Shown piece after piece: positions 23,401 to 32,241 of a DNA stretch of 64,000 nucleotides. The translations under genes and the position numbers were made by a program. This DNA is from Glutamicibacter ardleyensis (lineage in GTDB: Bacteria > Actinomycetota > Actinomycetes > Actinomycetales > Micrococcaceae). The notes beneath the pieces are model-generated. The model worked only from the letters and a program-made list of their open reading frames with translations. It was not told the DNA's origin and did no database searches. Each line of letters begins with the position of its first letter. Within the stretch, counting starts at the first letter, position 1. Location: the NCBI RefSeq assembly GCF_014644555.1, contig NZ_BMKX01000001.1, positions 372,001 to 436,000 of the forward strand, read 5' to 3'.

Positions 23401-24351
23401 ATGACCGGCAGCAAAGTCGTAGCCTTTGGCCATTTCCAGCCTGAGCGCATCGTGCCCAACACCGAGTTGGAAACGCTGGTCGAGACCAGCGACGAGTGGA
23501 TTACCCGCCGCGTAGGGATTCAGGAGCGCCGCTGGGGCACCGGCGTCGAGACCGTTGATTCGATGGCGATCAAGGCCGCAAAGATGGCCTTGGACAACGC
23601 CGCGGACATCAACGCCGAAGACATCGACCTGGTCATCGTCGCGACCTGCACCGCGACGGATCGCACCCCTCATATGGCCGCCCGCGTGGCCCTGGGCCTC
23701 GGCATGGATCAGGGGCCGGCCACCATGGACCTGAATGCCGCCTGCTCCGGGTTCGCCCATGCGGTAGGCATGGCTCAGGGTGCGATCGCCGCCGGCAGTT
23801 CCACCAAGGCACTGGTTATCGGCTCCGAGATGCTCACCGATTTCACCGACTTCACCGACCGCAGCACCTGCGTGCTGACCGCGGACGGCGCCGGGGCGTT
23901 CATCATCACCGCCTCCCAGACCGCAGAAATTTCCCCGGTGGTTTGGGGGTCGGTTCCTTCGCTGTCCGATGCGGTACGCATCGAGGCGGACAATGACATG
24001 AAGTTCGCGCAGAACGGGCAGAGCGTTTACCGCTGGACCGTCACCCAGCTGCCGAAGATCGCATCGAAGATCATCGACCGTGCGGGAATGAAGCCAGAAG
24101 AGCTGGACGCGATCATCTTGCACCAGGCTAATCTGCGCATCATCGAGCCCTTGGCGGAGAAGATCGGCGCACCCAACGCCCGCGTGGCCACCGACGTGGT
24201 CTACTCCGGCAATACCTCGGCCGCCTCGATGCCGCTGGCGCTGTCCAAGCTGATGGCCTCCGATGAGCCGCTGGCCTCGGGCGATAAGGCTCTGCTCTTC
24301 GCCTTCGGCGGCGGACTGTCCTACGCCGGACAGATCATCACCATTCCCTAA
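23401..24351 (+). CDS. Beta-ketoacyl-ACP synthase III-like (FabH family)
   Basis: A 316-residue thiolase-fold condensing enzyme. The catalytic triad is complete: Cys115 in NAACSGFAH, His241 in LHQANLRII and Asn271 in YSGNTSAAS. DEWITRRVGIQERRW near the N-terminus is the FabH signature. It starts acyl chains from acyl-CoA and malonyl-ACP. AAGGAG precedes ATG 23401. No fatty-acid synthase genes are adjacent, so it may be a stand-alone paralogue serving branched-chain primers or another condensation; its role is not fixed by context. Confidence 0.87.
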   Translation: MTGSKVVAFGHFQPERIVPNTELETLVETSDEWITRRVGIQERRWGTGVETVDSMAIKAAKMALDNAADINAEDIDLVIVATCTATDRTPHMAARVALGLGMDQGPATMDLNAACSGFAHAVGMAQGAIAAGSSTKALVIGSEMLTDFTDFTDRSTCVLTADGAGAFIITASQTAEISPVVWGSVPSLSDAVRIEADNDMKFAQNGQSVYRWTVTQLPKIASKIIDRAGMKPEELDAIILHQANLRIIEPLAEKIGAPNARVATDVVYSGNTSAASMPLALSKLMASDEPLASGDKALLFAFGGGLSYAGQIITIP

Positions 24352-25584: not shown

Positions 25585-25707
25585 ATGAGTAATTCTTTTG
25601 ACACCGCTACGACGATTGAGCAGTCCATAGAGATCGAAGATCTAATAATTACCGATGAAGATCTAATGGACGTACAACTTCGGGCTCGAATGGATGTCGG
25701 CCACTAA
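25585..25707 (+). CDS. Candidate RiPP precursor peptide (40 aa)
   Basis: A 40-residue ORF from ATG, with the purine-rich AAAGAAAG about 10 bases upstream. Residues 1-30 are strongly acidic and Ser/Thr-rich, with two similar blocks, IEIEDLI and ITDEDLM, as in a leader helix. The last 12 residues, DVQLRARMDVGH, carry all of the positive charge: Arg33, Arg35 and His40, plus Asp37. Arg, His and Asp are residues known to be modified by JmjC-type hydroxylases, and Arg is the substrate of peptide arginases. No GG or other leader-cleavage motif is visible. It lies 66 bases before the oxygenase operon, separated by a hairpin. Function is inferred from size, charge layout and neighbours. Confidence 0.6.
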   Translation: MSNSFDTATTIEQSIEIEDLIITDEDLMDVQLRARMDVGH

Positions 25708-25718
25708 GCCAGTTTCAT

Positions 25719-25756
25719 CAATCCAGCCTCGGTCGCAGAATACCGAGGCTGGATTG
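25719..25756 (+). terminator. Strong hairpin between precursor and first modifying gene
   Basis: Arms CAATCCAGCCTCGGT (25719-25733) and ACCGAGGCTGGATTG (25742-25756) pair perfectly over 15 bases with an 8-base loop; G-U and A-U pairs could extend it by two. There is no U tract after it. It probably acts as a partial terminator or mRNA stabiliser that keeps the peptide message more abundant than that of the enzymes. Confidence 0.6.
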
Positions 25757-25773
25757 GTTCGAGAAAGTACAGG

Positions 25774-26934
25774 ATGACGACGATTAAAAACGATGCTTGG
25801 TCTCGGTTTGCACAAGAGCATGGGCCGGACTTTGCAACAGTGGAGTACATTTCCTCGCTTGTTACTGCACCCGAAGCAATAGCCGGCACGATCGGTCATT
25901 CACTAATGAATGCGACTGATCCCCGCGTGCATGAAGCCATAGGACTCCCCCGGATAAGGGTTTTCGGCCCTTCTCAGCTAGATTATGAGGCCTCAGAAGC
26001 AGTAGTACATTCCAAATACGATGGCTCCAATCTGGTCGAATGGCTACAAGCAGTTACGGGCCGGAAGGATGTGTGCGCCGCGTTCAATGGAGTGGAGACG
26101 TGGTCGTCAAAAATTCGTTCCACCATCTATCGAAGTATTGTTGAGCCGATGGTCACGGCCTGTGGTGTTCCTCCGCGAGGATTAGACTTTTATTCCTTTA
26201 TTGCAGTGTCCGGGTTCACTCCCTTTGGCATACATTCGGATCCCGAACCGTCATTTATTTTCCATTTGGGTCCAAGCACAAAAACTGTGTGGGTTTGGGA
26301 AAATGACACTTTGCCGAAATTACCGGATAATCGTGAGATCAGCCTCCATACAGATAAATATCTGAAGTCTGCCGATCATGAGTTCACCCTCAGTCCTGGA
26401 GATTTCTTATGCATACCCGCAGGTCGTTTTCATCTATTCCGAAACAATGGACCGGCCGTCTTTCTAGGAATGTCTTACTATCGGGAGGATAACCACGACG
26501 AACTGCTTCAAGCAATTTCAACCTTGGTCCGCCGCTCGGAAAATCAACAAGACCTGGCGAATACGGCGCTGGTTGCCGCTAGCAATGGTGAAATCCATCG
26601 TGAACTGGATCGCCGTCAATCTCAACGTTTAAGTAGGGGCCATTTAGGACCCTATCGGATATTGCCAGTTGAACTCTTCAACGTCGATCTGCCCGCTGAA
26701 TGCCTAGATGTTCCTTTCGCTGTCAATAACAACCAAATTTCGGTCATGGGCCAGAGTATTTCGGTACCAGAGAGTATCTCAGATGAAGATATCTCTCGCT
26801 TTTTCCAACCGGGAAAAGTGCTCCGGGCTGTCGATCTTCAAAAACTAACGGATAATCCTTCCGAGGGGAACGCTCTCTTTATTGCATTACTACGTGTGGG
26901 CGCGACCTTCCAGACTACTGAGGCAGGTTCATGA
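25774..26934 (+). CDS. JmjC/cupin-type Fe(II)/2-oxoglutarate oxygenase 1
   Basis: A 386-residue protein. The facial triad reads HSD at His154 and Asp156, with the distal His220 in PGDFLCIPAGRFH; Lys170 is placed to bind 2-oxoglutarate. JmjC oxygenases of this kind hydroxylate protein side chains such as Arg, His, Asp or Asn. Residues about 300-386 look like a separate winged-helix-like domain (AVNNNQISVMGQSISVPES), as in ribosomal oxygenases YcfD, MINA53 and NO66. First gene of the overlapping operon, starting at ATG 25774 after GAGAAAG. Lower GC than the flanks. Likely modifies the 40-residue peptide; residue and stereochemistry unknown. Confidence 0.75.
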   Translation: MTTIKNDAWSRFAQEHGPDFATVEYISSLVTAPEAIAGTIGHSLMNATDPRVHEAIGLPRIRVFGPSQLDYEASEAVVHSKYDGSNLVEWLQAVTGRKDVCAAFNGVETWSSKIRSTIYRSIVEPMVTACGVPPRGLDFYSFIAVSGFTPFGIHSDPEPSFIFHLGPSTKTVWVWENDTLPKLPDNREISLHTDKYLKSADHEFTLSPGDFLCIPAGRFHLFRNNGPAVFLGMSYYREDNHDELLQAISTLVRRSENQQDLANTALVAASNGEIHRELDRRQSQRLSRGHLGPYRILPVELFNVDLPAECLDVPFAVNNNQISVMGQSISVPESISDEDISRFFQPGKVLRAVDLQKLTDNPSEGNALFIALLRVGATFQTTEAGS

Positions 26935-27968
26935 GTATCTGGGAAGATGTTCAAGCAGCACTAGGTGTGGAATTATTTCCCTTCGGCGAATTTAGGTCAG
27001 GTAAGGTTGATCCCTTGACTCTGGCGGGTTTGGGTTGGCCCTCTGTCAACCGGATAATCAAGTACTCGAATTTCGAACCGGGAACCATCAAAGTAGTTCC
27101 GGAGACGGATCTGGACCCCGGTCTCTACATTGAAGCGAAAATGGGTGGCGGGACGATCATTGAACGCCAGCCGAGAAATAAACCTTTCACCGAATTACTC
27201 AGGGACGGCGCGACCCTTGTACTCAACAAAGCAGATCGGGCCATACCTGAGCTTTCTGACTTCGTAGAGCGGTTGATGTATGCACAAAATGAAGCAGCTT
27301 GGGCCAACGGATATGCATGCTGGTCCAAAAATTCGCCTTTTGGCCGGCATTCCGATTCCCACGACACCATTATCGTGCAAACGGAAGGTCGAAAACATTG
27401 GCGCGTATACCGTGGTAGCGGATCGGACGCCGAGCTAGTCTTCGACAAAATTCTTGAAGTCGGTGACTTTATACATGTTCCAGTCGGTTGGGACCACGAA
27501 GTAACAGGTGTCGGATGCGAAAGTCTTCACTGGACTTTCGGAGTCGCTCATACCTCGCAGACCGAAGCGATAAACGAACTCATTAGTTACGGATGGAGTC
27601 TTGGCCAAATCGATCGGTTGAGTGAGGAATCCCTACGCTGTCGTCTTTTACATCTCCGCGGAGAACTTAGCACGGAACACCGGAAAGGACTCTCACTCCC
27701 GTGGCGCGTACATGACTCCTCATTTAGTGGCGCAGTCCTCCGCTGGGCTGGACGCTTCAAGCCCAGCTTAGAAATTAACGAAGGACAGCTCCATGTCAGA
27801 GGATTGGGGAAACTGGTAAAACTCCCATTGACCATGCGACCAGTTCTCGAGGTGCTCATTTCTGGTGGAGGCTTGCCCTTTGATAGCTTGTCCAATTCCG
27901 CGCGGGAAGTCGTACTGTCTATGTTTAACGCCGAGCTATTGATTGCTGAGCATGCAGACCAAAAATAA
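26931..27968 (+). CDS. JmjC/cupin-type oxygenase 2 (ribosomal-oxygenase-like)
   Basis: A 345-residue protein. HSD at His140/Asp142, EGRKHWRVY with Lys155 for 2-oxoglutarate, and DFIHVPVGWDHEV with His189 complete the JmjC active site. The spacing and GRKHWRVY wording match Cupin_4 ribosomal oxygenases. A dimerisation-like helical segment (about 205-240) and a C-terminal winged-helix-like region (about 265-345) follow, as in YcfD. Its ATG overlaps the previous stop (ATGA). In this operon the target is more likely the peptide than ribosomal protein L16, but the ribosome remains an alternative, given the RsgA gene nearby. Confidence 0.78.
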   Translation: MSIWEDVQAALGVELFPFGEFRSGKVDPLTLAGLGWPSVNRIIKYSNFEPGTIKVVPETDLDPGLYIEAKMGGGTIIERQPRNKPFTELLRDGATLVLNKADRAIPELSDFVERLMYAQNEAAWANGYACWSKNSPFGRHSDSHDTIIVQTEGRKHWRVYRGSGSDAELVFDKILEVGDFIHVPVGWDHEVTGVGCESLHWTFGVAHTSQTEAINELISYGWSLGQIDRLSEESLRCRLLHLRGELSTEHRKGLSLPWRVHDSSFSGAVLRWAGRFKPSLEINEGQLHVRGLGKLVKLPLTMRPVLEVLISGGGLPFDSLSNSAREVVLSMFNAELLIAEHADQK

Positions 27969-29109
27969 TACAACTAACGACGTTGAGTGGGTGTGGCATC
28001 CCGCATTGTTCGAACAAGACTCAAAACTTTTGAATCCGGCCGAAGGTTCTTCTCTGGAACTAAACGAGGCGGTGTTAAAACTTCGTGCCCGCTCCTCTGT
28101 CGCACGTTCAGAACTAAACCCTGAAGTTTTCGACAAACTTAGTCGCCGTCGTTTCCTTATCCCCAAAGAATGTGCGCTCGTTGCAACGCACGGACTCCTT
28201 AAATCCGCCCAACCCGTCGTCGAAGTCGAATGCGCTCAACATTCGACACCTTGGGGCCTGATTGGTGCGGGCGTTTGGCAAAACCCCGATCCAGATCTCG
28301 CAGTTCACGACGTGCTCGCGGGACTCCGACGCGGACTGCAACGCTCCCTCGCTATCGTCACAAGTGCCAATTCTTGGAACTGGAATGAGATGAGCACTTC
28401 AGAAACTTATCCCTGTCGCGTCGTTGACCATGGAAATCTTATCGTTGATTCGCGGATTGACACGGCACAAGACATCGCAAGCAGACTTTTAGCCGCAACC
28501 CGCACAGTTGGTGCCCAAGGCCATAACCCAGTTGTTATTGGCGGAGATCATTCTATTGCGTATCCCGTTATCAGTGCGCAACGAGAACGATGGAAGCAGC
28601 TAGTAGTGGTGCACCTAGATGCCCACGCGGACGCTCGTCCAATTCCTCACGGACAACAGACTGCAGATTGTGGAAACTTCGTCACCTGGTGCTTAGCGGA
28701 CGAGCCGGACTTGCCATGGCTAACTCTTGGAGTGCGCGGTTACGACCCCGAGTTTTCGATGCCTTCACCTTTAACTGCAAAGCATGTCTCCTTTATCAAA
28801 GCATCAGATCTTGGATCTAAACAATGTTTCGATGAAATTGAACAACATTGCCAAGGACGCCCAGTGCATTTGAGCATCGATATCGATGTCCTTGATCCGG
28901 TCTTCGCACCTGAGGTTGCATATCCGGCCATTGGAGGGGCGGACCCAGACATTATTAAGGAAATCATCAACCGGATAAGGTCATCAGGAACAATCGTAGG
29001 AGTCGATTTCACGGAGGTTTGCGGCCCAATGACCCGACGAAATTTGGCTGCAATGCATGCCATAGACATGCTTACTCACATTTTAACGCCGAAAAGGACT
29101 ATTTCTTGA
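27952..29109 (+). CDS. Arginase/agmatinase-family enzyme, candidate peptide arginase with RRE-like N-terminus
   Basis: A 385-residue ureohydrolase. All di-manganese ligands are present: GGDHS (His200), HLDAHAD (Asp223, His225, Asp227) and SIDIDVLDP (Asp310, Asp312), with DFTEVCG after them. Free arginases are about 300 residues; this one has about 95 extra N-terminal residues. Within these, LLNPAEGSSLELNEAVLKLR followed by a helix and RRRFLIP resembles PqqD-like RRE domains that bind RiPP leaders. Peptide arginases (OspR in landornamide) turn Arg into Orn in precursors. ATG 27952 is preferred; a TTG nine bases upstream also keeps the frame. It overlaps the oxygenase gene by 17 bases. Confidence 0.78.
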   Translation: MQTKNNTTNDVEWVWHPALFEQDSKLLNPAEGSSLELNEAVLKLRARSSVARSELNPEVFDKLSRRRFLIPKECALVATHGLLKSAQPVVEVECAQHSTPWGLIGAGVWQNPDPDLAVHDVLAGLRRGLQRSLAIVTSANSWNWNEMSTSETYPCRVVDHGNLIVDSRIDTAQDIASRLLAATRTVGAQGHNPVVIGGDHSIAYPVISAQRERWKQLVVVHLDAHADARPIPHGQQTADCGNFVTWCLADEPDLPWLTLGVRGYDPEFSMPSPLTAKHVSFIKASDLGSKQCFDEIEQHCQGRPVHLSIDIDVLDPVFAPEVAYPAIGGADPDIIKEIINRIRSSGTIVGVDFTEVCGPMTRRNLAAMHAIDMLTHILTPKRTIS

Positions 29110-30425
29110 CATCGCAATCCGTTCGAAGTGGAAGTCCTTTTCGATTAAGCAGTTTCCGCCTCTACTACTTGGGCCAGTCGATTTCATTCTTGGGCGACGG
29201 AATCGTCCCGATGACGTTTGCGTTCGCTGCCCTGGCCGTGTCCGATTCAGGATGGGGTATGCCTATCGTGCTTCTGTCGTTATGGGGAACACGCATGTTG
29301 CTCATTGCTCCCGGAGGGAACGTTTCAGACAAGTACAACCGTGTCACCGTCATGATCGCTGCCGATCTGGTCCGCCTATTGGCTCAAATAATTCCGGTCT
29401 TCGCTTTTATCACGAATACAGCCACGTTATGGCATCTTGGGATCTCAGCAGCTCTGTACGGTGTCGGAACGGCTTTCTACATCCCCGCTAGCATTGGTCT
29501 GTTGCCACGGATTGTGCCAAAGGAATCGCTGCAAAAGGCGAATTCCTGGATCGAATTAACGCTAAACACAGGTCTTTTAGCTGGTCCAGCTTTAGCAACG
29601 GTTCTTGTCTCATTAGGTGGAATACAGACTGCATTACTATTTGATATTGCAACGTTCCTCATTTCAATAGCATGCTTGTCCGTCCTATTCCGCTTGCCCA
29701 AGGGGCAGCTTTTGACGAATGGCCTCGAGGAAAGCGATGACGGCAGGACCGCAGAATCCGTAAATGACGAAAAAGAAAACGAGATACCCCCAGGTTTTCT
29801 CAATGGATTGCGCCTTTTACCTCGCTACCCGGGTGTTTTATGGCTGATGTTGCTTTCGTGTCCCGTGCAGTTCAGTATCGCTTCCATTAGCGTCCTCGGT
29901 CCAATAATTGCTAGAGATAGTTTAGGCGGTATCGCGTTCTGGGCCGGCCTCGCGACCGCACTTGCCGCCGGAGGACTTGCAGGTTCCTTCCTTGCCGGAT
30001 GGGTCAAAGTCAAAAAGCCGGTATTGCTTGTTCTGGTCGTATTAACGATTTGCCAGCCTATACAGCTGGTTCTCTTTGGCCTGGGACTGAACATCATTGT
30101 TCTGGCCGTTTCGTTCGCAGCTACAGCCATCCTTGTAACCATTGCGGGAATCCTTTTTGATACTTACGTCCAAATAACGGTGCCCGATTCTGCATTATCC
30201 CGAGTGGGATCAATCGAACAAACATTGATGTCTGTCATGATTCCGATTGGATTCGCCGTCAGTTTGCCAATGGCTCAGTGGCTGGGGTCCTCGCAGTATT
30301 TATATTCGTTAGCGGCCATAATAGCCATTTGCGGACTGATAGCCGCGATTTTCCTCTTCCCTCGTCAGTCAAGAATCGATGAGTCCCAGACACGAATGAC
30401 CCAAAGAACAGGGAGCAACAAATGA
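29106..30425 (+). CDS. MFS exporter
   Basis: A 439-residue major facilitator with about 12 hydrophobic segments and a charged central loop of about 40 residues (ESDDGRTAESVNDEKENE region). The N-terminus FRLYYLGQSISFLGDGI and the loop motif GGNVSDKYNRVTVM (motif A variant) match the MFS_3/EntS-MefA-like group of small-molecule and peptide exporters. I start it at TTG 29106, whose TTGA overlaps the arginase stop; the longer open frame from 29019 lies in the arginase gene. Likely exports the operon product or confers self-resistance. Confidence 0.8.
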   Translation: MTSQSVRSGSPFRLSSFRLYYLGQSISFLGDGIVPMTFAFAALAVSDSGWGMPIVLLSLWGTRMLLIAPGGNVSDKYNRVTVMIAADLVRLLAQIIPVFAFITNTATLWHLGISAALYGVGTAFYIPASIGLLPRIVPKESLQKANSWIELTLNTGLLAGPALATVLVSLGGIQTALLFDIATFLISIACLSVLFRLPKGQLLTNGLEESDDGRTAESVNDEKENEIPPGFLNGLRLLPRYPGVLWLMLLSCPVQFSIASISVLGPIIARDSLGGIAFWAGLATALAAGGLAGSFLAGWVKVKKPVLLVLVVLTICQPIQLVLFGLGLNIIVLAVSFAATAILVTIAGILFDTYVQITVPDSALSRVGSIEQTLMSVMIPIGFAVSLPMAQWLGSSQYLYSLAAIIAICGLIAAIFLFPRQSRIDESQTRMTQRTGSNK

Positions 30426-31450
30426 CAGCACTTAGAGATTTGCTAACGCAACTGGGAATGCCCACGGGAGCCGACCTAAATTGGACCACCAGGGACGAAG
30501 GGCGTCCGGGCCGAATCGTAGCCATGCATGGACGACAAGTGGAAGTCATGGCTGTGAGAGGTGATGCGCTGGAACATGTTGTACTTGATCTTTCGCGCAA
30601 CCTTGCTACTACCCCGGTGACGGGAGATTGGGTAGTTGTCAACGCCGATAGAGTTGTATCGCTCGGTGGTCGAACTACCAATCTTTCGAGACCCGACCCA
30701 AGCGGTCAAGGAGTTCAAGTACTTGCTGCCAATATCGATCACGTGATGATAGTCCTCTCGCTAGAGCGGGGACTCAACCTTAAGTCCTTGGAACGTCTTT
30801 CGGTCATGGCTTGGGACAGTGGCGCATTGCCGATTACGGTGCTCACAAAAGCCGATACGGTCGAGAATCCTGCGGAAGCAGTTGCAGAAGCCGCACTGGC
30901 AGCGCCTGGAACTGAAATTTTATTAACAAGTGCACTCACCGGACGCGGATTGGACCGACTGCGCGAAATTATGGCTGTCGGCACTACGACCACAATGCTT
31001 GGCGCTAGTGGGGCAGGCAAGACTTCCCTACTTAATGCCCTAGAAGACATTTCAGAAAAAGTCCGTGAAGTTAACACTTCTGGAGAAGGGCGTCATGCGA
31101 CTTCTGCACGCCGCCTCTACCAATTATCCAGCGGAGGCGTCTTACTTGATCTCCCCGGTATTCGTTCACTGGATCTACTCGCCACCGAAGAAGGAATGGA
31201 GGAGACTTTTGTCGAAATTGCAGAATCTGCTCTGCGTTGCCGCTTCCATGACTGCGAGCATGGCACCGAACCGGGTTGCGCCGTCCAAGAAAGTGTCAAA
31301 GTAGGGGAAATTTTACAACGACGTCTCGATAATTGGCACAAGATCCGCAGAGAAATGTCTTATCAAGAACGCAAAGGTGATGCAGCGTTAATGGCAAAGC
31401 AACGAGCGGAGTGGAAAAACATGACTAAGAGCCACAGGTCAAGAAAATGA
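30422..31450 (+). CDS. rsgA: RsgA-type circularly permuted ribosome GTPase
   Basis: A 342-residue GTPase with permuted motif order: G4 TKAD (142-145), G5 SAL (170-172), G1 GASGAGKT (194-201), then GEGRHATSARR and G3 DLPG (243-246). Residues about 25-90 form the N-terminal OB fold. A C-terminal zinc site uses Cys273, Cys278, His280 and Cys286. Everything needed for 30S-dependent GTPase activity appears intact. RsgA matures the small ribosomal subunit and is normally a lone housekeeping gene. Here it sits inside the peptide operon, overlapping both neighbours by 4 bases, so it is probably a second copy with a dedicated role, possibly protection. Copy number is unverified. Confidence 0.85.
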   Translation: MTALRDLLTQLGMPTGADLNWTTRDEGRPGRIVAMHGRQVEVMAVRGDALEHVVLDLSRNLATTPVTGDWVVVNADRVVSLGGRTTNLSRPDPSGQGVQVLAANIDHVMIVLSLERGLNLKSLERLSVMAWDSGALPITVLTKADTVENPAEAVAEAALAAPGTEILLTSALTGRGLDRLREIMAVGTTTTMLGASGAGKTSLLNALEDISEKVREVNTSGEGRHATSARRLYQLSSGGVLLDLPGIRSLDLLATEEGMEETFVEIAESALRCRFHDCEHGTEPGCAVQESVKVGEILQRRLDNWHKIRREMSYQERKGDAALMAKQRAEWKNMTKSHRSRK

Positions 31451-32208
31451 TGCCTCAGTGTATACCCGTGGTCGGGCAGTGGCCGCTTACTGCATCGGCA
31501 CTAGATGGGCCGATTTGTGTGAAATCGCAAGCAGATGACTGGCCGATCCATCGGCTTGTACGCTACCAAACACTTCAAATCGACTACGCAGAACAAACTG
31601 TCAATGTCGAAACTCAAGATGGAACGATCCCCTCAACGGTGGGTGACTACTTTCAATTACTCGCAAAAGGAGGCGGGCTAGATACCTATTTGAAGGGTTG
31701 GACGGTCTCAAACAACCTCACCGACTTCGCAAGACTACCGTTACCAGCTGTATTCCAGAACTGGTTTGACGATCTTCCCCATGGATCACGACCTGACTGG
31801 AATTGGATTTTCGTCGGGCCCAAAGGCAGTAAATCGGCATTGCATATCGACGTGATGTGCAGTTCTGCGTGGAATCTTCTGGTTAGCGGAAGAAAGAAGT
31901 GGTTATTCCAGTCTCCTGCGCTCGCTGCTGATGCAGGATTGCTACAAGATTCTCTCGTGGAGTCATCTGGAAACGAAGCCCGAATCCAATACGCGCATAT
32001 TCAAGAACCCGGCGATGTAGTCATCGTTCCGGGCGGGTGGGCCCACGCAGTGGAAAACTTGGATCTGACCGTTTCACTCACTGGCAACTGGGTAAATAGT
32101 TCTAATGCACAGTTGGTCGAAGCAGAACTCGTGCTCCAAGGATCGGGGCCATGGCGCCAAGTGATGGCTTCGCTACGCGCGCGACATCAAATCGGATTCA
32201 AAATTTGA
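31447..32208 (+). CDS. JmjC-domain oxygenase 3 (JMJD6/Cupin_8-like)
   Basis: A 253-residue compact JmjC protein. HID at His133/Asp135, SGRKKWLF with Lys150/151, and PGDVVIVPGGWAHAVENL with His200 give a complete iron and 2-oxoglutarate site. FVGPKGSKSALHID resembles the JMJD6/FIH-like group more than oxygenases 1 and 2, and it has no winged-helix tail. It overlaps the rsgA stop by ATGA and is the last gene of the operon. FIH-like enzymes hydroxylate Asn, Asp or His and JMJD6 hydroxylates Lys; the substrate here is inferred to be the operon peptide. Its end is 33 bases from the high-GC GntR gene. Confidence 0.75.
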   Translation: MMPQCIPVVGQWPLTASALDGPICVKSQADDWPIHRLVRYQTLQIDYAEQTVNVETQDGTIPSTVGDYFQLLAKGGGLDTYLKGWTVSNNLTDFARLPLPAVFQNWFDDLPHGSRPDWNWIFVGPKGSKSALHIDVMCSSAWNLLVSGRKKWLFQSPALAADAGLLQDSLVESSGNEARIQYAHIQEPGDVVIVPGGWAHAVENLDLTVSLTGNWVNSSNAQLVEAELVLQGSGPWRQVMASLRARHQIGFKI

Positions 32209-32241
32209 CGTTGGGTGCATCACACCCGCACACTGGTAATC

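Follow-up and report, generated by a model that had tools for sequence, protein, structure and literature searches.

A RiPP-like gene cluster with a conserved precursor ending and its own RsgA in Micrococcaceae and Streptomyces

The locus and its precursor family

Within a 64,000-nucleotide stretch of the Glutamicibacter ardleyensis genome (the whole stretch is referred to here as the window, and the genome is labelled G000), a short acidic peptide gene, a strong RNA hairpin and six overlapping genes form a locus that resembles a cluster for a ribosomally synthesized and post-translationally modified peptide (RiPP). All of these features lie on the forward strand. The peptide gene (25585..25707) encodes the 40-residue precursor MSNSFDTATTIEQSIEIEDLIITDEDLMDVQLRARMDVGH and is followed, in the intergenic space before the enzyme genes, by the hairpin (25713..25764). 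Next come J1 (25774..26934), a cupin/JmjC-like putative Fe(II)/2-oxoglutarate (2OG) oxygenase that serves as the cluster-specific marker; J2 (26931..27968), a JmjC_2 oxygenase; a protein of the arginase/ureohydrolase family (27952..29109); a predicted exporter of the major facilitator superfamily (MFS; 29106..30425), with a probable TTG start picked because it overlaps the preceding stop; an RsgA-type 30S-dependent GTPase (30422..31450); and J3 (31447..32208), an accessory JmjC oxygenase. Successive genes overlap by 4, 17, 4, 4 and 4 bases. The same layout and coordinates had been proposed in an earlier reading of this DNA (the original prediction), and they were confirmed.

Seven intact loci of this kind were compared: the window; Arthrobacter sp. 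MYb213 (genome G181, loci L043 and L064); L044 and L059, from two genomes of another Micrococcaceae genus (G385 and G825, respectively); L066 and L067, on plasmids of S. goshikiensis and S. zaomyceticus; and L098, from a genome (G1657) that is likely a Streptomyces, judging by its genus label and by 74–79% identity to the S. goshikiensis J2, MFS, 2OG oxygenase and RsgA proteins. In 7/7 of them, a small open reading frame (ORF) directly upstream of J1 ends in R-x-D-V-G-H followed by the stop codon. When 132 sequences (859,752 bases) were scanned for open frames of 20 or more residues, this ending was found in 17 of 17,627 frames, and all 17 were overlapping copies of the seven loci, directly 5' of J1. 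The predicted precursors have 31–40 residues, 8–10 of them acidic; that of the window has 10 Asp/Glu residues, and its Arg and His residues are confined to positions −8, −6 and −1 from the C-terminus. The peptides end in LRARMDVGH (window and MYb213), SPRQDVGH (L044 and L098), PPRQDVGH (L059) or GPRQDVGH (L066 and L067), so that the core would read ARMDVGH in the first two loci and PRQDVGH in the remaining five. From this comparison, the core of the window peptide would be encoded by codons 25684..25704. The window precursor contains no FRF, and no match for the precursor, J1, J2 or J3 was found in NCBIfam at E values up to 0.1.

The C-terminal ending stands out as far better conserved than any other stretch when set against the identities of the other proteins between three lineages (represented by the window, S. 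goshikiensis and G385), which are 23–33% for J1, 23–28% for J2, 27–36% for MFS and 45–47% for RsgA. Synonymous codon changes also outnumber non-synonymous ones in the precursor genes of the window and MYb213 (10 to 2) and of L044 and L059 (17 to 4). The conservation of C-terminal Arg and His residues expected in the original prediction holds for Arg −6 and His −1 across all seven precursors; Arg −8, in turn, varies. The check that had been named as decisive, whether homologous operons are preceded by a conserved small ORF, came out positive in 7/7 intact loci, each time with a short precursor gene beside tailoring enzymes kept across homologous clusters. This conservation backs the view of the small ORF as a precursor, and we consider it very probable that these are RiPP-like clusters with a verified precursor family; the precursor and the gene set around it are well supported.

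Distribution of the gene set

The set common to the intact loci, in Micrococcaceae and Streptomyces, consists of the precursor, J1, J2, the MFS exporter and RsgA, the last two genes being found in 7/7 loci each. The closest relative of the window locus is that of MYb213, with 90–94% identity in the six enzyme, exporter and RsgA proteins and 95% in the precursor. Among ten loci searched, homologues of the arginase and of J3 were found only in MYb213 besides the window, and the arginase and the third JmjC protein thus do not, contrary to the original proposal, define the class. Behind J3 in MYb213 (L043:14867-14999), two short stretches share 76–78% identity with the C-terminal portion of J3 and are probably the remnant of a second J3 copy. 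The three Streptomyces loci carry another 2OG oxygenase, identified as 2OG-FeII_Oxy_3 (Pfam) in L066 and by tblastn identities of 71–74% in L067 and L098, to which no match was found in L044 and L059.

Searches of plasmids with J1, J2 and RsgA led to the same 11 Streptomyces records, with RsgA a few kb from J1/J2, and three of these records were opened (L066, L067 and L068). The third, a plasmid of Streptomyces sp. ADI95-16, has this cluster too, in a form in which the reading frames of the precursor, of J2, of the 2OG gene and of rsgA are broken; the breaks may be real decay or perhaps assembly errors, and L068 is excluded from the counts of intact loci. A Brevibacillus plasmid, an extra match of the RsgA search, shows no such cluster in its gene table, which is incomplete.

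In genomes, the search with J1 was made in overlapping sets. Matches were found in 4 of 395 genomes of the family (G000, G181, G385 and G314), in 2 of 198 of the genus of G385 (G385 and G825), in 1 of 297 of the order (G000) and in 1 of 90 relatives of G1657, which was G1657 itself. The match in G314 was a false lead, with neighbours judged transketolase-like. At the level of the class, 5 of 394 genomes matched, with the cluster shown in G000 only; G925 (a 4.4-kb contig) and G1035 (a 16-kb stretch) have a J1 match and no second cluster gene there. The 8 matching genomes among 199 of Streptomyces comprise G1657 with the cluster, four with the repeat-type family described below and three with weak matches. 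A scan of genome contigs gave 28 candidate stretches and one confirmed locus, that of MYb213. J2 alone is unspecific, with matches in 58 of 396 genomes of the phylum; seven J2-led regions from six of these 58 genomes were not matched by the other cluster queries, and two J2-led plasmid loci had no such cluster among their listed genes.

The cluster lies between fabH (ending at 24351) and gntR (starting at 32215), and the MYb213 cluster is placed between the same two genes. The GC content is 0.48–0.53 in 1-kb windows from 24.5 to 32.0 kb (edge windows excepted) and 0.61–0.68 in the flanks. In nine genomes of the same genus, the best matches to fabH and gntR are 191 (in G246) to about 8,200 bases apart. 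The site appears to be an insertion hot spot, and the AT-rich cluster an acquired island.

A different RiPP-like family was also encountered, in which precursors with several LKxGMRPDA repeats lie near a J1-like protein. Its loci are L060 (end 11413), L061 (end 5405), L099 (end 11397), L100 (end 10663) and L101 (end 10911), and its precursors are carried by G564 and G959, both of which appeared in the class-level search, and by G1669, G1633 and G1586. In the J1-like protein, the HxD motif reads HEG in the two rows aligned (L060 and L061), and the neighbours in L061 include arginine-deiminase-like, class II (D/K/N) tRNA-synthetase-like and DUF3865 proteins. Among the papers listed for GMRPDA, none is relevant.

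Enzymes, hairpin and the cluster RsgA

The three oxygenases all retain the HxD...H iron site (H154/D156/H220 in J1, H140/D142/H189 in J2 and H133/D135/H200 in J3), and its residues are invariant in 7/7 aligned rows for both J1 and J2. The original description of three JmjC proteins with this site is correct as to the site and clear for J2 (Pfam JmjC_2, 4.6e-16) and J3 (Pfam JmjC, 5.3e-11), which score above the family cut-off; J1, on the other hand, is weakly JmjC-like, with 18.6 bits against JmjC_2 (cut-off 22 bits), a Cupin_2 score that is also below cut-off, and no relative better than E 0.19 in a profile search of the PDB. For the J2 profile, the best matches in the PDB are MINA and NO66 (E 5.9e-12 to 6.2e-11); a cupin-4 protein follows at 2e-7, and after it come two entries at 4.7e-5 and YcfD-type arginine hydroxylases at about 5e-4. 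J2 thus resembles MINA and NO66 in profile and iron site, and differs from them in standing beside a peptide gene. Since these closest relatives are histidyl hydroxylases, the invariant C-terminal His is the most likely target of J2; J1 would act on Asp −4 or Arg −6. Hydroxylation of the peptide by J1 and J2 is considered likely. For J3, the nearest protein in the PDB is JMJD6 (E 2.9e-17). The arginase matches PF00491 (2.5e-40) from residue 150 only, with residues 150–375 on profile positions 47–276, and is nearest to proclavaminate amidinohydrolase and agmatinases; its motifs GGDHS, DAHAD and SIDIDVLDP are present, in agreement with the claim that all metal ligands are kept. The exporter matches MFS_1 in Pfam (1e-27).

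The window hairpin has a folding energy of −31.8 kcal/mol (z −6.8), and none of 200 shuffled sequences was as stable. All seven loci have a hairpin at this position, with z from −5.6 to −1.6 in the other six, and the 66 bases that contain the hairpin differ at 1 base between the window and MYb213, so that they are better kept than the peptide gene. The hairpin probably sets the ratio of precursor to enzymes.

The cluster RsgA (RsgA_GTPase, 2.2e-36) is the second copy in the window genome, the other being located at G000:C8, and each of four cluster genomes examined has one or two further RsgA-like copies. In a tree of 23 proteins (the seven cluster copies and 16 others, of which 15 came from nine genomes and one from the Brevibacillus plasmid), all seven cluster RsgAs fall on one side of a branch supported at 100/100. 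This tree gave long-branch warnings, which concern among others the joining of the Brevibacillus protein to the cluster clade and two branches inside it, and the presence of near-copies makes any label more prone to cluster. The RsgA GTPase domain and the P-loop are retained in the cluster proteins, and the zinc-binding C/C/H/C is kept in all; the G3 motif is D[L/I]PG in 7/7 cluster copies and DTPG in 16/16 others. Switch I reads GRHAT in the window and MYb213 and GRHTT in the other five cluster copies. The cluster protein is thus like RsgA/YjeQ in domain, P-loop and zinc motif, and differs in being an extra copy beside biosynthetic genes, in its separate clade and in D[L/I]PG. RsgA-like paralogues at about 40% identity to the cluster RsgA are encoded at six further loci (L075–L078, L080 and L081); the genomes concerned, three of Streptomyces type and three from the second Micrococcaceae genus, each have a more distant RsgA-like protein as well.

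A proposed pathway, its alternatives and known systems

The explanation that we favour, with somewhat more confidence than doubt, is an undescribed RiPP family whose product would be a hydroxylated peptide some seven residues long, with the 30S subunit as its target, and whose RsgA would provide self-protection. The ribosome would make the 31–40-residue acidic precursor, and J1 and J2 would hydroxylate its C-terminal core (P/A)-R-(Q/M)-D-V-G-H, with the invariant last His as the most likely site for J2 and the invariant Asp or Arg for J1. In the window lineage, the arginase and the JMJD6-like J3 might turn an Arg into (hydroxy)ornithine and so vary the product, and in Streptomyces the core Pro may be a substrate of the extra 2OG oxygenase. 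The core would then be freed by a host protease and exported by the MFS protein, and the product would bind the 30S subunit near the decoding centre, where a dedicated RsgA paralogue would shield the ribosomes of the producer. The choice of target follows from the action of RsgA, which, as described in part of PMC9032327, binds at the decoding centre by clamping h44 and touching h18 and A1492. From this docking site, the 30S subunit is proposed as the target of the peptide and RsgA as the protector of that subunit, a step to which we give slightly less than an even chance. Such protection may be likened to TetM-type ribosome protection. More tentative still is the full proposal of an antibiotic family of linear hydroxylated heptapeptides (PRQDVGH/ARMDVGH) that inhibit translation at the 30S decoding centre, with the D[L/I]PG RsgA as a new kind of ribosome protection that clears or shields the site.

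Several observations weigh against this explanation. The Streptomyces precursor pairs show synonymous to non-synonymous changes of 2:1, 3:2 and 2:3, and are too alike for a codon test; the L067 hairpin was equalled by 12 of 200 shuffles; and a protease was not recognised in any of the seven clusters. In L044, a gene that lies 5' of J1 and was judged C39-peptidase-like was considered as the leader protease and rejected, with no counterpart at E below 1 in seven other sequences and no NCBIfam match. Arg −6 is kept in loci that lack the arginase and Pro −7 in two loci that lack the extra 2OG gene, so that the accessory enzymes are not simply mapped onto core residues. As for RsgA, its gene lies on the strand opposite J1, J2 and MFS in L044 and L059, and its homologues can have other roles, such as that of the Bacillus subtilis orthologue CpgA, a phosphatase that dephosphorylates 4-phosphoerythronate (according to the relevant part of PMC12445079). 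These last two points favour a RiPP pathway in which RsgA detoxifies a by-product or adjusts ribosome assembly and the peptide has a target other than the 30S subunit. We regard this as unlikely, with RsgA present in 7/7 intact clusters as a clade of its own and with Escherichia coli RsgA, in the same part of that source, described as lacking the CpgA side activity.

The product might also be a ribosomal metallophore, exported by the MFS protein, in which beta-hydroxy-Asp and beta-hydroxy-His (and hydroxy-Orn) chelate iron or another metal. Siderophore ligands include these very residues, the core Asp and His are invariant, and J2 resembles His hydroxylases; however, neither an uptake system nor a metal regulator is found among the neighbours listed in the incomplete gene tables of L066 and L067 or among the six window genes, and RsgA would be left unexplained, all of which makes a metallophore rather improbable. 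Enzymes nearest to J2 act on ribosomal proteins, as RsgA acts on ribosomes, and the oxygenases could accordingly modify ribosomal proteins together with RsgA, the small ORF being a regulator or an accident. This is the most improbable of the alternatives: the small ORF keeps its last residues while J1 and J2 drop to 23% identity. Mimicry of a ribosomal protein by the R-x-D-V-G-H motif was looked for in the host genome and was not found, the coding pattern having four matches (six in a reversed control), none of which, besides the precursor, is at an ORF end and none of which was judged ribosomal.

The favoured pathway, that of a hydroxylated peptide protected against by RsgA, has partial parallels in known systems. 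As to the claim that no RiPP class with this enzyme set had been described, the pairing of a JmjC protein with an arginase is by itself not without precedent, being known from the biphenomycins (in the parts of PMC12707348 and PMC12257519 that deal with it). The biphenomycin arginase BipC forms an Orn that the JmjC protein BipG then hydroxylates at the gamma position (PMC12707348, same part), which is a precedent for the arginase followed by J3. The biphenomycin (Pbs) pathway is thus alike in being a RiPP system with an arginase and a JmjC Orn hydroxylase, and bip also has an MFS transporter. It differs in its MNIO and B12 radical S-adenosylmethionine (SAM) enzymes, which act on Phe residues, and in its TldD-type protease, as these sections describe them, none of which is found among the six window genes; searches of the six operon proteins against Pfam and NCBIfam gave no match for either the MNIO or the B12 radical SAM enzyme, which leaves the operon outside the biphenomycin family. 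Its core, moreover, is unrelated to that of the window, and RsgA occurs 0 times in both main texts. The peptide arginases OspR (landornamide), FlmR and OhkR (PF12640) convert Arg to Orn on a precursor, as is proposed for the window, and the enteropeptin enzyme KgrD is a PF00491 arginase in a RiPP pathway, as set out in a section of PMC12703449. In contrast, the window arginase matches PF00491 only, which places it outside the PF12640 peptide arginases, and the thiomorpholine that KgrD needs in its substrate, according to that section, would have no enzyme to make it among the six window genes.

In the literature searched, which includes few subscription papers and no bioRxiv collection, RQDVGH was in no paper, none was relevant by title for RsgA with RiPP, and hydroxyhistidine together with 'ribosomally synthesized' gave no paper. 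RsgA is absent among the matches listed for self-resistance; a screen for producers of protein synthesis inhibitors has rsgA as a row in its table of translation genes, in a portion of PMC9290621. Neither the precursor family nor the J1–J2–MFS–RsgA set is described in any of the papers listed, nor is a RiPP pathway with a cluster-borne RsgA.

If the explanation is true, Arthrobacter-type bacteria and Streptomyces plasmids would share a RiPP family that consists of little but oxygenases, with a nearly invariant core of seven residues as their substrate. To our knowledge, very short ribosome inhibitors are rare among RiPPs. The His and Asp peptide hydroxylases could serve as tools, and the strains in which the prediction can be put to a direct test are named and sequenced. 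A cluster-borne RsgA would then be a self-resistance marker with which further clusters might be mined.

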